DNA of 64,000 nucleotides from NCBI RefSeq assembly GCF_009687865.1, contig NZ_BLAE01000064.1, forward strand, positions 1 through 64,000, written 5' to 3'. This DNA comes from Acrocarpospora macrocephala (GTDB taxonomy: Bacteria; Actinomycetota; Actinomycetes; Streptosporangiales; Streptosporangiaceae). This document shows, piece after piece, positions 2,741 through 6,695 of the stretch. The notes under the pieces were generated by a model that saw only the letters and a list, made by a program, of their open reading frames with translations, had not been told where the DNA came from and ran no database searches. Every line of letters starts with the position of its first letter. The stretch's first letter is position 1. A program made the position numbers and the translations under genes.

Positions 2741-3627
2741 CGCTGCACCTCCAGGGCGACCCGCCGGTTCTCGGCGGCGTGCTTGTCCATGTAGGCCAGG
2801 ACGAGGTCTTCCAGGCTGAGCTGGGTGACCGTCCAGGCGGGGTCGTGAATGGGGGCGTCGGTGCGTACCACGAACGTGCTCTGCCGGTCGGTGTGACGCT
2901 GGAAGACCACGTGCTGGTCGGCGGGGAGCCGGTCGGGATCGCGGCGTGGGCCGGTGAGCCGGTGATGGGTGGCCAGCAGCTTGTCGGTCTCCCCGGCGAC
3001 CTGCACGCGGGAGTCGACGAGCACGATCAGGAAGTCGCAGACCCGTTCCAGGTCCGAGACCAGGTGGGAGGAGAGCACGACGCTGAACTCGTGCTCGACG
3101 GTGGCCTCCATCAGCCCCCGCAGGAAGTCGCGGCGGGCCAGCGGGTCGAGCGAGGCCACGGGCTCGTCCAGGATCAGCAGCTCGGGACGCTTGGCCAGGC
3201 CCAGGGTGAGAGCGAGCTGGGCGCGCTCGCCGCCCGACAGCTTGCCCGCCCGATGCGTGGGGACGAGATCGAGCTGGGCGATGCGCTCCCGCGCCATGCC
3301 GTCGTCCCAGCGGGGGTTGAGGCGCGCGCCCAACCGGAGGTGATCGGCGACGGTCAGCCCCGCGTAGACGGGGGTGTCCTGGGCAACGAACCCGACCCTG
3401 GCCAGTTGCGCGGGCGTGCCCCCGGGCCGACCGCCGAGCACCGAGATGTCCCCCGCCGTCGGTTCGAGCTGACCGCTCGCCAGCTTCAGCAGCGTGGTCT
3501 TGCCGGCTCCGTTGGGTCCCACTAACCCCACGACGTGGCCTGCCGGGATGTCGACGGTGCAGTCGCGCAGCGCCCAGCGCTTGCCGTACTTCTTGCCCAG
3601 TGCCTGGGCCTGCAGGACAGAAGTCAC
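2737..3627 (-). CDS. ABC transporter ATP-binding protein
   Basis: A 296-residue cytoplasmic ATPase that would power the adjacent permease. Visible motifs: Walker A GPNGAGKTT near residue 39, Q-loop VAQDTPVY, signature LSGGE, Walker B LLILDEP, and an H-loop in VLSSHLVSDLE. About 80 extra residues follow the ATPase fold and may contact the permease or sense ligand. It overlaps the GntR gene stop by 4 bp on its upstream side. The arrangement regulator-ATPase-permease is typical of YtrA-controlled operons that respond to cell-wall antibiotics in Gram-positive bacteria; the ligand here is unknown. Confidence 0.9.
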   Translation of the reverse strand: MTSVLQAQALGKKYGKRWALRDCTVDIPAGHVVGLVGPNGAGKTTLLKLASGQLEPTAGDISVLGGRPGGTPAQLARVGFVAQDTPVYAGLTVADHLRLGARLNPRWDDGMARERIAQLDLVPTHRAGKLSGGERAQLALTLGLAKRPELLILDEPVASLDPLARRDFLRGLMEATVEHEFSVVLSSHLVSDLERVCDFLIVLVDSRVQVAGETDKLLATHHRLTGPRRDPDRLPADQHVVFQRHTDRQSTFVVRTDAPIHDPAWTVTQLSLEDLVLAYMDKHAAENRRVALEVQR

Positions 3628-4288: not shown

Positions 4289-4921
4289 TCAGTACTGATT
4301 CATCTTGGCGTCCAGGGCGAGACCCGCGTCGATCATTCTCGCGGGGACGCCCTTGATGCCCATCTGGTCCTTGGCGATGCGCCCGAGCGTGGGCAGGCTC
4401 TTGCGGTCCGGCCAGGTCTCGGGCTTCCACAGCGATGAGCGGAGGAACGCCTTCGCGCAGTGCATGTACAGTTCCCCGACCTCGATGAGGATCGCCAGCC
4501 GCGGCCGTTTGCCGCGGACCGCCAGGTCGTCGAAGAACGGCGCGTCCGACACGAGCGTCGCGCGCCCGTTCACGCGCAGGGTCTCGTTCATCCCCGGCAC
4601 GATGAACAGCAGCCCGGCGTGGGGGTTGCGCAGGATGTTGCGGAGGCTGTCGAGCCGCTGGTTGCCGGGCCGGTCGGCGAGCACCAGCCGGTGGTCGTCG
4701 AGGACCAGCACCGATCCGGCGGGATCCCCCCGGGGCGAGACGTCGCAGGTTCCGTCCGTGTTCGAGGTCGCCAGCAGCACGAACGGCGAGTGCGCGATGA
4801 TCGTGCGCGCGTGTTCGTCGATCCGGGCGATGTCCTTGTCCCAGATGGCCTGCGGTGGCTCCTTCACGATCTCCCGGAGCTCGGCCTCGCTGGCCACCGT
4901 ACGAATCTCAGAGGGATCCAT
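4289..4921 (-). CDS. Pyridoxamine 5'-phosphate oxidase family flavoprotein (DR2398-like)
   Basis: A 210-residue cytoplasmic FMN-binding split-barrel protein of the PPOX family. Family features include the segment FVLLATSNTDGTCDVSPRGDPAG, which binds FMN phosphate, then RNILRNPHAGLLFIVPGMNETLRVNGRATL. I chose the ATG at 4921 because homology begins there; the frame stays open upstream without family resemblance. An IdeR/DmdR-like iron box lies 11 bp upstream, so expression is probably iron-repressed. That points to a role in iron or haem handling rather than vitamin B6 synthesis, which is inference. Confidence 0.85.
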   Translation of the reverse strand: MDPSEIRTVASEAELREIVKEPPQAIWDKDIARIDEHARTIIAHSPFVLLATSNTDGTCDVSPRGDPAGSVLVLDDHRLVLADRPGNQRLDSLRNILRNPHAGLLFIVPGMNETLRVNGRATLVSDAPFFDDLAVRGKRPRLAILIEVGELYMHCAKAFLRSSLWKPETWPDRKSLPTLGRIAKDQMGIKGVPARMIDAGLALDAKMNQY

Positions 4922-4931
4922 CAGGCAAATA

Positions 4932-4950
4932 TAAGGTAAGCCTAACCTTG
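4932..4950. promoter_or_regulatory. IdeR/DmdR1-type iron box
   Basis: On the minus strand this reads as a 19-bp element with core AAGGTTAGGCTTACCTT. It matches the well-known IdeR/DmdR consensus (TTAGGTTAGGCTAACCTAA) at 15 of 19 positions. It sits between the divergent PPOX gene (11 bp away) and a 24-codon ORF on the plus strand, so it may repress both under iron sufficiency. Confidence 0.75.
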
Positions 4951-4981
4951 CTGTCTGCAGCCGTTCCCGAGGAGGTACCCC

Positions 4982-5056
4982 ATGACAACACCTGAGTTGG
5001 CGACAGGGACCACCGCCGCCGGAAAACCGTTTGAGCTTCCTTCCTCGTTCCCGTAG
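4982..5056 (+). CDS. 24-residue small ORF (possible leader peptide)
   Basis: A short ATG frame beginning MTTPELATG and ending LPSSFP. It is preceded by a strong ribosome binding site (GAGGAGG, 6 bp before the ATG). The divergent iron box lies about 32 bp upstream. It precedes the structured element and DUF1062 gene on the same strand. No family is recognised and there is no signal peptide. It could be a leader peptide coupling iron status to the downstream RNA structure, a small regulatory peptide, or the start of a decayed gene. The strong RBS is the main reason to list it. Confidence 0.4.
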   Translation: MTTPELATGTTAAGKPFELPSSFP

Positions 5057-5116
5057 GTTGCCTGCGGCCCGTCGCTGTGAGGACAGAGGACAAACCGCGT
5101 GACCCCGCCTGCTCTT

Positions 5117-5240
5117 TAGACCTGACACCTTCTTCCGCTCACCTTCAAGCCGACCCTCAGGTCGGCTCTGCCGGGCTGCCCGTGTGCGCCCGGTCATGCA
5201 GCGTTTGAGGCCGCGCGCAATCGGCCTCGTGTCAGGTCTA
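5117..5240 (+). ncRNA. Cloverleaf-like structured leader upstream of DUF1062 gene
   Basis: A perfect 12-bp inverted repeat (TAGACCTGACAC at 5117-5128 and its complement at 5229-5240) encloses three further hairpins. Hairpin 1 is 5148-5167 (8-bp stem, CTCA loop), hairpin 2 is 5171-5193 (6-bp CCGGGC stem), and hairpin 3 is 5207-5228 (7-bp GAGGCCG stem). Hairpin 3 abuts the outer stem, so the two could stack. The outer stem ends 8 bases before the DUF1062 ATG, right at the ribosome binding region, which suggests control of translation initiation. A DNA inverted repeat left by a mobile element is an alternative. Confidence 0.45.
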
Positions 5241-5248
5241 GAGAGATC

Positions 5249-5809
5249 ATGTCTTCACAACCTCATACTGTGCTGCCCTGGGTCGTTCGCCGGACCAGGC
5301 TGCCGCTGCTGTCGTTGCGGTGCGTGGACTGCCGGTCGGAGTCGGCCACCACCGGCGAGGGCAGGTTCCGCGTCAACGCCAACGGCAAGCTGCTGGACGT
5401 GTGGCTGCTGGTCCGCTGCGTGTCCTGCGATCGGACGAGCAAGCTCACCGTGCACGAGCGAGCACCCGTCAGATCCTTCGATCCGGCCGAGCTCGACGGC
5501 TACCACACCAGCGATCCGGAACTGGTGGCGTCCACGCTGCTGGATCCGCTACTCGCCCGGCGCAACCGCTTCACCCTGGACTGGGAGGGGGCCTGGCGGC
5601 TGGACACCCCGTCGGCATGGCTCGACGAGGCGTGGCCGGTCCAGGTGGAGGTCGCCTTCGAGGACCCGGTGCCGGTGCGCCCGGAGCGGCTCATCGCCCA
5701 GGGGCTCGGCTTCAGCAGGAACGAGGTGCTGCGCCGGATCAAATGCGACATTCCGCTGCGCCGTCCGACGAGCGCCAGATTCACCTTCACCGTGATGGCC
5801 GGGGACTAG
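5249..5809 (+). CDS. DUF1062 domain-containing protein
   Basis: A 186-residue protein of the uncharacterised DUF1062 family. The N-terminal half shows the family pattern: CVDC, then FRVNANGKLLDVWLLVRC, then CVSC, so four cysteines could form a zinc ribbon. The C-terminal half is charged and lacks recognised motifs. It is the only gene following a branched inverted-repeat element that ends at its ribosome binding region. Nothing around it states a function; the iron box and 24-codon ORF 0.2 kb upstream hint at metal-responsive control. Confidence 0.8.
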   Translation: MSSQPHTVLPWVVRRTRLPLLSLRCVDCRSESATTGEGRFRVNANGKLLDVWLLVRCVSCDRTSKLTVHERAPVRSFDPAELDGYHTSDPELVASTLLDPLLARRNRFTLDWEGAWRLDTPSAWLDEAWPVQVEVAFEDPVPVRPERLIAQGLGFSRNEVLRRIKCDIPLRRPTSARFTFTVMAGD

Positions 5810-5874
5810 CGGGGATGTAGCCGCGGCGCGCGATCCCACCGAGGCGGCCACGCATGAGCACACAGGGCTCCGCG

Positions 5875-6615
5875 TCAGGACGGGGCGAGGACGCAGAACT
5901 CGTGGCCCTCCGGGTCGGCCAGGCACGTCCACGGGACGTCGCCCTGGCCGAGGTCGAGGTCGGTGGCGCCGAGGGCCCGCAGCCGGGCCACCTCCGCCGC
6001 CTTGTCGTCACCGGGGTACGGCAGCAGGTCAAGATGGACGCGGTCTGGCACGGTCTTCACGCCGGGCGTACGGAGGAACTCGAGATACGGGCCGACACCC
6101 TTGGCGGAGCGCAACGCCGCCTGATCGTCAGTCACCTCGTGCAGGGTCCAGTCCATCGCCTCACCCCAGAACCGGGCCATGGCCCGCGGATCCGCGCAGT
6201 CGACCACCACCGCGGCGATCGGCCCGGTGTCCCGGTAGATCTCCCGGGGCTCCAGCACGCAGAACTCGTTGCCCTCGGGGTCGGCGAGGACCGTCCACGG
6301 CACTTCGCCCTGGCCCACGTGGGCGGGCGTCGCACCGAGAGCCTTCAGGCACGCGACCAACTCCGCCTGGTGGGCCGCGGAGGTGGTGGCGAGATCGAGG
6401 TGCACACGGTTCTTCGTCGTTGTCTTGGGCTCAGGGACGGGAACAACGTCGACGCCGACGGCGACCGGGTCCGGCCAAACGAGGCCGCCGGCGGGTCCGA
6501 CGTAGGTGGTCACGCCGGGTCGGTAAGCACTCCAGCCGAGCGCCTCCGCCCAGAACCGGCCGACCGCCGAGGCATCAAGAGCCTTTATGTTCACCTGAAC
6601 AGGTCGCAGCGCCAT
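5875..6615 (-). CDS. VOC family protein with two glyoxalase-like domains
   Basis: A 246-residue protein made of two tandem vicinal-oxygen-chelate modules. Each ends with the same pattern: WTVLADPEGNEFCVLEP near residue 120 and WTCLADPEGHEFCVLAP at the C-terminus. Each also has an RVHLDL strand. The start is set at MALRPVQVNIKALD, because the longer frame adds 15 residues without family similarity. Such proteins bind metals or act as lyases, dioxygenases or drug-binding proteins; the substrate is unknown here. Confidence 0.85.
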   Translation of the reverse strand: MALRPVQVNIKALDASAVGRFWAEALGWSAYRPGVTTYVGPAGGLVWPDPVAVGVDVVPVPEPKTTTKNRVHLDLATTSAAHQAELVACLKALGATPAHVGQGEVPWTVLADPEGNEFCVLEPREIYRDTGPIAAVVVDCADPRAMARFWGEAMDWTLHEVTDDQAALRSAKGVGPYLEFLRTPGVKTVPDRVHLDLLPYPGDDKAAEVARLRALGATDLDLGQGDVPWTCLADPEGHEFCVLAPS

Positions 6616-6695
6616 GCCGGCGATCCTATGCAGCCCGCTCAGCAACGACATCTCGGGCAACGTCCGTTGGCGCCTTGGGACAGACGGCCTGGCGG

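Follow-up and report, generated by a model that had tools for sequence, protein, structure and literature searches.

The DUF1062 gene of Acrocarpospora macrocephala is preceded by a conserved six-codon leader open reading frame (ORF), MTPPAL*, which ends inside a long RNA stem, and the element is most plausibly a translation attenuator, with DUF1062 probably switched on when a ribosome stalls on the leader in a peptide-dependent manner. The basis of this reading is comparative and consists of coding selection on the leader, a compensated outer stem, and an SD-like site in the 3′ arm of that stem. The mechanism class is already known, and the conserved leader before DUF1062 would be a new case of it. 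The analysis concerned one stretch of 64,000 nucleotides, referred to below as the window, in which the original prediction had described a four-way, tRNA-like folded element and had missed the leader ORF.

The DUF1062 locus and its predicted fold

The gene product is assigned to the DUF1062 protein family (PF06353, E 5e-34), and the features around the gene are collected in Table 1. The promoter-like pair is absent from the output of a consensus scan. No terminator-like site was found in 4900-5900, so control is probably exerted at translation. The functional unit covers about 5077-5270, with the leader ORF upstream and probably codons 2-6 of DUF1062 included; it is larger than the element first noted, whose fold is nonetheless present.

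Table 1. Features of the DUF1062 leader region (window coordinates)
Feature	Position	Strand	Description and basis
Promoter-like pair, TTGAGC - 17 nt - TAGGTT	5031..5059	+	Weak candidate from sequence and alignment; kept in close relatives
Two SD-like motifs of the leader ORF	5077..5091	+	GTGAGGAC (5077-5084) and GAGGAC (5086-5091); SD-like tetramer counts
Leader ORF, MTPPAL*	5099..5119	+	GTG ACC CCG CCT GCT CTT TAG; intact leaders and codon-position changes
Outer stem, 5′ arm	5112..5128	+	Overlaps the end of the leader ORF; fold and alignment, 93.5% of cells paired
Interior	5136..5203	+	Short helix 5136-5141/5197-5203; hairpin a 5148-5167 (8 pairs, 5148-5155/5160-5167); hairpin b 5170-5194 (7+2 pairs, 5170-5176/5188-5194 and 5178-5179/5186-5187); variable between clades
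Hairpin c	5207..5228	+	7 pairs, 5207-5213/5222-5228; 99.5% of cells paired in the main clade; missing in the L022-L024 clade
Outer stem, 3′ arm	5229..5245	+	AGAGAG (5240-5245) is the likely SD of DUF1062
DUF1062 gene	5249..5809	+	186 aa; putatively regulated gene; the element seems to extend into codons 2-6

The perfect 12-bp outer stem is recovered at 5117-5128/5229-5240 and extends to 17 pairs (5112-5128/5229-5245), one of which is U-G. The three inner hairpins, originally given stems of 8, 6, and 7 bp, are present with 8, 7+2, and 7 pairs. The four-way arrangement is not retained, as in the predicted fold the additional short helix encloses hairpins a and b and produces two nested three-way junctions. 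The element does end at the ribosome-binding region, with the likely DUF1062 SD lying inside the 3′ arm. The MFE is −75.5 kcal/mol as compared to −48.6 ± 4.25 for shuffled sequences (z −6.3), and none of 200 shuffles is as stable. Folding by itself gives no strand, because the opposite strand folds about equally well (z −6.4). In an alignment of 95 sequences, 285 cells are G-U and 148 are A-C, an excess which favours the + strand as the RNA.

The original prediction named no known family that would explain the element, and this holds for the collections searched. Rfam covariance models gave no match in the window at gathering score and, at E up to 10, merely four matches with a best E of 0.57; ARAGORN reported no tRNA genes. 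A known Rfam riboswitch class was dropped as a candidate for want of a covariance-model match at gathering score, and the tRNA or tRNA-like element, including the suggested tRNA mimic, was dropped on the ARAGORN and Rfam results together.

The surroundings hold some features of their own. A small ORF, MTTPELATGTTAAGKPFELPSSFP, with an AGGAGG-like site lies at 4982-5056, and a block common to four other genera (L007-L010) opens at 4980, two bases ahead of it. An iron-box-like palindrome, TAAGGTAAGCCTAACCTTG, is found at 4932-4950, just upstream of a minus-strand PPOX flavoprotein gene at 4292-4921 (MSMEG_1061 family, TIGR04025); the palindrome resembles the DtxR/IdeR box consensus and suggests that the flavoprotein gene may be under iron control. 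A glyoxalase-type (VOC) gene at 5878-6660 adjoins DUF1062, and a relative of it lies inside the 1-kb flanks of 18 of 80 named DUF1062 loci, upstream in 16.

The leader and the stem among relatives

Relatives were gathered in several searches. A DNA search of 100 relatives provided 18 loci for use, from 18 genera including the window's own. Named genomes were scanned with the protein, and of 347 relatives the best 80 were taken; their genera are Microtetraspora, Nonomuraea, Sphaerisporangium, Streptosporangium, Microbispora, Actinomadura, Micromonospora, Dactylosporangium, Plantactinospora, Nocardiopsis, Amycolatopsis, and others. DUF1062 occurs, at E up to 1e-10, in 181 of 341 genomes of the window's own family, and 40 further family loci were hand-picked among the less similar matches listed, which makes the homologue set a nonrandom one. 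A class search adds two loci; with the window, 141 loci are obtained and, once six duplicates are removed, 135 distinct leaders. Ten loci were not counted with these: L227 and nine loci of the Streptomyces type, of which one has no leader. The DUF1062 gene tree has 128 rows; excluded from it are the pseudogenes L018 and L020, all rows lacking a full-length gene, and those of under six codons. Pairing and covariation were counted on 95 main-clade sequences, window included.

The leader ORF is intact in 133 of the 135 distinct leaders. The exceptions are L018, in which the DUF1062 gene is decayed and the leader start lost, and L183, in which another short ORF ends at the same place. The start codon is GTG in 104 leaders, ATG in 26, and TTG in 3, and the stop codon is TAG in 80, TGA in 52, and TAA in 1. 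An SD-like tetramer precedes the start by 4-13 nt in 133/133 leaders as compared to 31/133 for random upstream sites, the background being 17.6% of all upstream positions tried. Changes in codons 2-5, counted by parsimony on the gene tree, fall on codon positions 1, 2, and 3 in the numbers 1, 2, and 30 (binomial P 8e-12). Judged by this pattern, the leader ORF is under coding selection, and the comparison suggests that a small leader gene is probably translated. Part of the conservation of codons 5-6 and the stop is due to structure, since these lie within the stem.

Ala5 is kept in 130/130 leaders of at least six codons, and residue 6 varies (Leu, Phe, Arg, and Ile). All 80 leaders of the short form (six codons and a stop) have Ala as the penultimate residue. 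Fifty leaders end two codons later at a TGA still within the 5′ arm (MTPPALQT*, MTPPALAA*); there, Ala5 is kept and followed by three more residues. The start has moved to ATG-CCT-GCT (MPAL*) in two relatives, and one relative carries MTTPAL*. Against a strict link between leader and gene, L020 and G604 keep the leader intact beside a decayed gene.

The outer stem and hairpins have 93.2% of their cells paired in the main clade. The compensatory changes that the original prediction had proposed as a check in homologues are present: double changes affect 12 pairs and 43 cells, the corresponding values being 12.9 in shuffles (0/500 reach the real one) and 5-31 when the partner is slid. Outer pair 5121/5236 changes from C-G to U-A in 9/95 sequences and a pair of hairpin a from A-U to G-C in 15/95. 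The weakest pair of the 5′ arm (5117/5240) and the innermost pair of hairpin a are each formed in 49/95, and the short helix has 79.5% of its cells paired, with one pair formed in just 15/95.

The spacing between the leader stop and the DUF1062 start is 78-152 nt among leaders. In the L022-L024 clade, the interior is shorter by about 45 nt, with hairpins b and c missing; L021 and L176 belong to a clade whose interior is of a different build. The outer stem forms in 6/6 folded examples from two clades with other interiors. Since the interior differs between clades while the outer stem holds, the interior looks like a spacer instead of a conserved aptamer. In the Micromonospora leaders L106, L108, and L141, the 3′ arm is found as a tandem duplicate (TCAGGTCTAGAGATCAGGTCTAGAGATC) upstream of position 1001, which gives the 5′ arm two possible partners.

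Of 100 family genomes, 36 were matched by a covariance model of the element at E up to 0.1, with 37 matches in all; 33 of these matches abut, by coordinates, a DUF1062 gene or its remnant. The matches in G434 and G604 also lie before DUF1062 genes, that of G604 being frameshifted; the match in G297 is a decayed remnant, with a truncated DUF1062 lying about 11 kb away, and the match in G031 (E 0.014) looks like chance. The promoter-leader-DUF1062 block (4980-5837) is 92-97% identical between several genera. This identity and the patchy presence of DUF1062 in the family suggest that promoter, leader, and gene probably move horizontally as one unit. In L009, the 32 bp of window 5806-5837, located at the DUF1062 stop, recur exactly about 0.9 kb further downstream (3262-3293), as if something had been inserted there.

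The first codons of DUF1062 are also conserved. Codons 2-6 are TCT, TCA, CAA, CCT, and CAT in 121, 126, 102, 111, and 129 of 131 relatives, and the same codons make up 0.9, 3.9, 11.8, 7.9, and 10.2% of their synonyms elsewhere in these genes. In GC-rich genomes, gene starts are often AT-rich. In the folding model, codons 2-6 can pair with the leader SD region, and in 25 sampled loci the median number of expected pairs is 12.6 vs 7.4 for synonymous versions. At most 1/20 synonymous controls attains the real pairing value in 13 of these loci, most controls attain it in three (L180, L194, and L224), and the total folding energy with the real codons is mostly no better than that of the controls. 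The modelled pairing is suggestive only of codons 2-6 as a second lock on the element.

A candidate attenuator and competing explanations

The effect of a ribosome on the fold was modelled. In the window, the probability that the SD AGAGAG is unpaired is 0.003 in the free RNA, and a ribosome placed at the leader stop brings it to 0.385. Among the 133 leaders, the modelled median for the SD is 0.163 for the free RNA and 0.636 with the ribosome in place, whereas a footprint of the same size in the middle of the element gives 0.128. The value goes up by more than 0.2 in 108/133 leaders with the ribosome at the leader stop and in 0/133 with the mid-element control. Accessibility of the DUF1062 start codon is nearly flat in the same leaders (median 0.363 to 0.396). 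No SD rise is modelled in 17/133 leaders. Twelve of these come from Micromonospora, Dactylosporangium, and Plantactinospora; their 3′ arm is duplicated in tandem or their spacer is longer, and for this reason the fixed SD window is doubtful in them. As modelled, the stem overlapping the leader would sequester the DUF1062 SD, and a ribosome on the leader would expose it. The cis-regulatory RNA originally predicted ahead of DUF1062 is thus supported by conservation, compensatory changes, and a putatively sequestered SD.

The proposed mechanism would begin with an mRNA whose start lies upstream of the leader. A ribosome would translate the six codons of MTPPAL* and terminate within the 5′ arm of the long stem. 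On its prompt departure, the stem would close over the DUF1062 SD and little DUF1062 would be made; the footprint of a stalled ribosome would instead hold the 5′ arm open, leaving the SD free and allowing DUF1062 to be translated. Because amino acids are kept, beyond what mere passage of a ribosome would need, the stall would most likely depend on the peptide (T-P-P-A). The likeliest cue would be a drug or another stress that affects the peptidyl-transferase centre or the synthesis of Pro-Pro, with DUF1062 serving the response. In the portion of PMC13410324 available, chloramphenicol arrest is described as preferring Ala in the E-site, with a weaker preference for Ser or Thr, and linezolid as preferring Ala even more. 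This preference and the penultimate position of Ala5 in MTPPAL* are the ground for the guess at an inducer. As far as the available part of PMC8129111 goes, proline codon pairs do not favour one cue over another.

The foremost competitor is plain translational coupling, in which each ribosome translating the leader would melt the stem and give a proportional output of DUF1062, with no stall or cue. The leader stop inside the stem is in an ideal position for this, and the conserved parts are the leader ORF and the stem. Coupling, however, requires no specific peptide, whereas T-P-P-A is kept while third positions vary (30/33 changes), which leaves it an unlikely explanation, although one to be taken seriously.

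Autoregulation appears improbable. DUF1062 would here bind the multi-hairpin RNA and repress or activate its own translation, with the leader ORF in a secondary role; its four invariant cysteines (31/31) might form a zinc site, and hairpin a covaries within the main clade. Clades whose proteins share about 65-70% identity, however, have different inner hairpins or lack some of them, and searches with DUF1062 gave no nucleic-acid-binding family at a convincing score.

The ligand-binding riboswitch or tRNA mimic of the original prediction would agree with a very stable branched fold carrying compensatory changes, but it matches neither Rfam nor a tRNA. Moreover, the interior is replaced or partly gone in other clades, while the leader ORF and the outer stem are kept; this reading is very improbable. 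Hardly credible is a MITE-like relic or a DNA-level hairpin without any RNA. The perfect terminal inverted repeat and the near-identity of the promoter-leader-gene block between genera would agree with such a reading, but it is contradicted by the single full copy in the 12.1 Mb genome (the other four BLAST matches are short, E 0.4-0.8), on which a repeated mobile element was dropped, by the fixed place before DUF1062, by the G-U over A-C excess, and by the coding pattern in the leader.

Streptomyces-type leaders, known switches, and the DUF1062 protein

A second type of leader is found before other DUF1062 genes. In one genus drawn from the class search, 21 of 61 genomes contain DUF1062; this genus was taken as Streptomyces because the named Streptomyces plasmids (L263 and L266) carry the same leader. 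The ORF TTG TAC ACC NNN TGA (MYTx*) lies upstream of 32 DUF1062 genes, mostly of that genus, with TAC ATC in one; 31/32 have an SD-like tetramer, and Thr stands one residue before the last in 31/32. Left out of the set are L053/L054, which are of the main type, L039, the leaderless second copy in G193, and L050, a leaderless gene of another DUF1062 type. The MYTx* leader is missing from L039, from L050 and L264, which are other DUF1062 types, and from the proteobacterial locus L265. Its letters pair with TCTCAC and GGTGTAC directly ahead of the DUF1062 start, and 89.8% of cells are paired, with low variation. Covariation is barely above shuffles (25/500 reach the score, and one slid control is higher), and the modelled SD accessibility rises in just 4/32. 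The Streptomyces type is similar in layout and unrelated in sequence, and its mechanism, as modelled, is less well supported.

Genome G193, with the two DUF1062 copies L039 and L219, one with and one without a leader, offers a natural comparison. DUF1062 relatives are held by 52 plasmid records, 26 of them Streptomyces; among the 30 plasmid matches listed, 17, all Streptomyces, have DUF1062 at most about 20 kb from one end of the record. The plasmid locus L264 belongs to another type without leader.

The protein itself is poorly matched by known families and structures. C25, C28, C57, and C60 are invariant in 31/31 aligned DUF1062 sequences and suggest a zinc site. Pfam gave solely DUF1062 above cut-off, the rest being sub-threshold matches to helix-turn-helix and other families (best E 0.024); an NCBIfam scan gave no match, and a PDB sequence search found no DUF1062 relative. 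The predicted structure has a pLDDT of 76.9, and Foldseek found no significant match to it in the PDB (best E 0.40). An S4 RNA-binding domain at the C-terminus, perceived by eye in RP-RLIA-G-SR-EV, was dropped as Pfam, PDB, and fold searches gave no support; S4 was found neither in Pfam scans at E up to 10 nor in the best 50 of 137 Foldseek matches, although the two may still be distantly related. A defence-system link was rejected as well, PADLOC giving no match for the window protein and one for a homologue at E 0.026. In Rfam and the literature searched, no description of the leader, its peptide, or the role of DUF1062 was found.

As a candidate translation attenuator, the DUF1062 leader has its closest known kind in the ermC/cat-type attenuators. 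In the case of whiB7, the product is a transcription factor, which differs from the DUF1062 case. In the available text of PMC12121999, the whiB7 leader uORF of actinobacteria is said to sense several classes of ribosome-targeting drugs, and it is, like the present one, an actinobacterial leader ORF. The accessible part of PMC10201436 describes ARE-ABCF switches with uORFs of three to four residues, namely cplR (MRI), vmlR (MIN), vmlR2 (MK[L/Q]), and lsaA (MAGN). The DUF1062 leader shares with these and with ermC/cat a very short ORF on which a ribosome is expected to free the SD, and with cplR a stem that hides the downstream SD. It differs from cplR, as described there, in that cplR has a terminator whereas no terminator-like site was found here, and from the whole group, as far as described in that part, in its peptide (MTPPAL* or MTPPAxxx*) and in its gene, DUF1062 being no known resistance factor. 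For the toiL uORF of the E. coli topAI-yjhQP operon, the authors propose in the same available text of PMC12121999 that stalling anywhere in the uORF unmasks the SD. The leader ORF region pairs with the downstream SD in both cases. By reading of that text, toiL differs in peptide and host, whereas in the DUF1062 leader the arms are split by a branched interior and amino acids 2-5 are almost fixed. In the part of the leader-gene survey PMC4833913 at hand, short distances and reinitiation are described, unlike the layout of the DUF1062 leader.

The finding is a first functional clue for DUF1062, which in many actinomycetes would seemingly be made solely when a defined peptide causes difficulty to the ribosome. 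The leader may serve as a ready-made sensor, as a reporter fusion would reveal the drug or stress that is sensed and hence the possible purpose of DUF1062. The hexapeptide provides a compact test of context-specific stalling (Pro-Pro, and Ala before the last codon). As a tentative thought, which we hold to be well short of probable, DUF1062 might be an unrecognised factor protecting or tuning ribosomes against peptidyl-transferase inhibitors, with MTPPAL* and MYTx* as two sequence-unrelated stalling leaders acquired by the gene. The penultimate Ala of the short MTPPAL* form and Thr of MYTx* would then provide the context reported for arrest by chloramphenicol (Ala, Thr less so) and linezolid (Ala), and such drugs or their natural analogues would be the inducers. 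Should a translation inhibitor prove to be the cue, DUF1062 would become a candidate for a new factor of intrinsic resistance or ribosome maintenance in bacteria that produce antibiotics.
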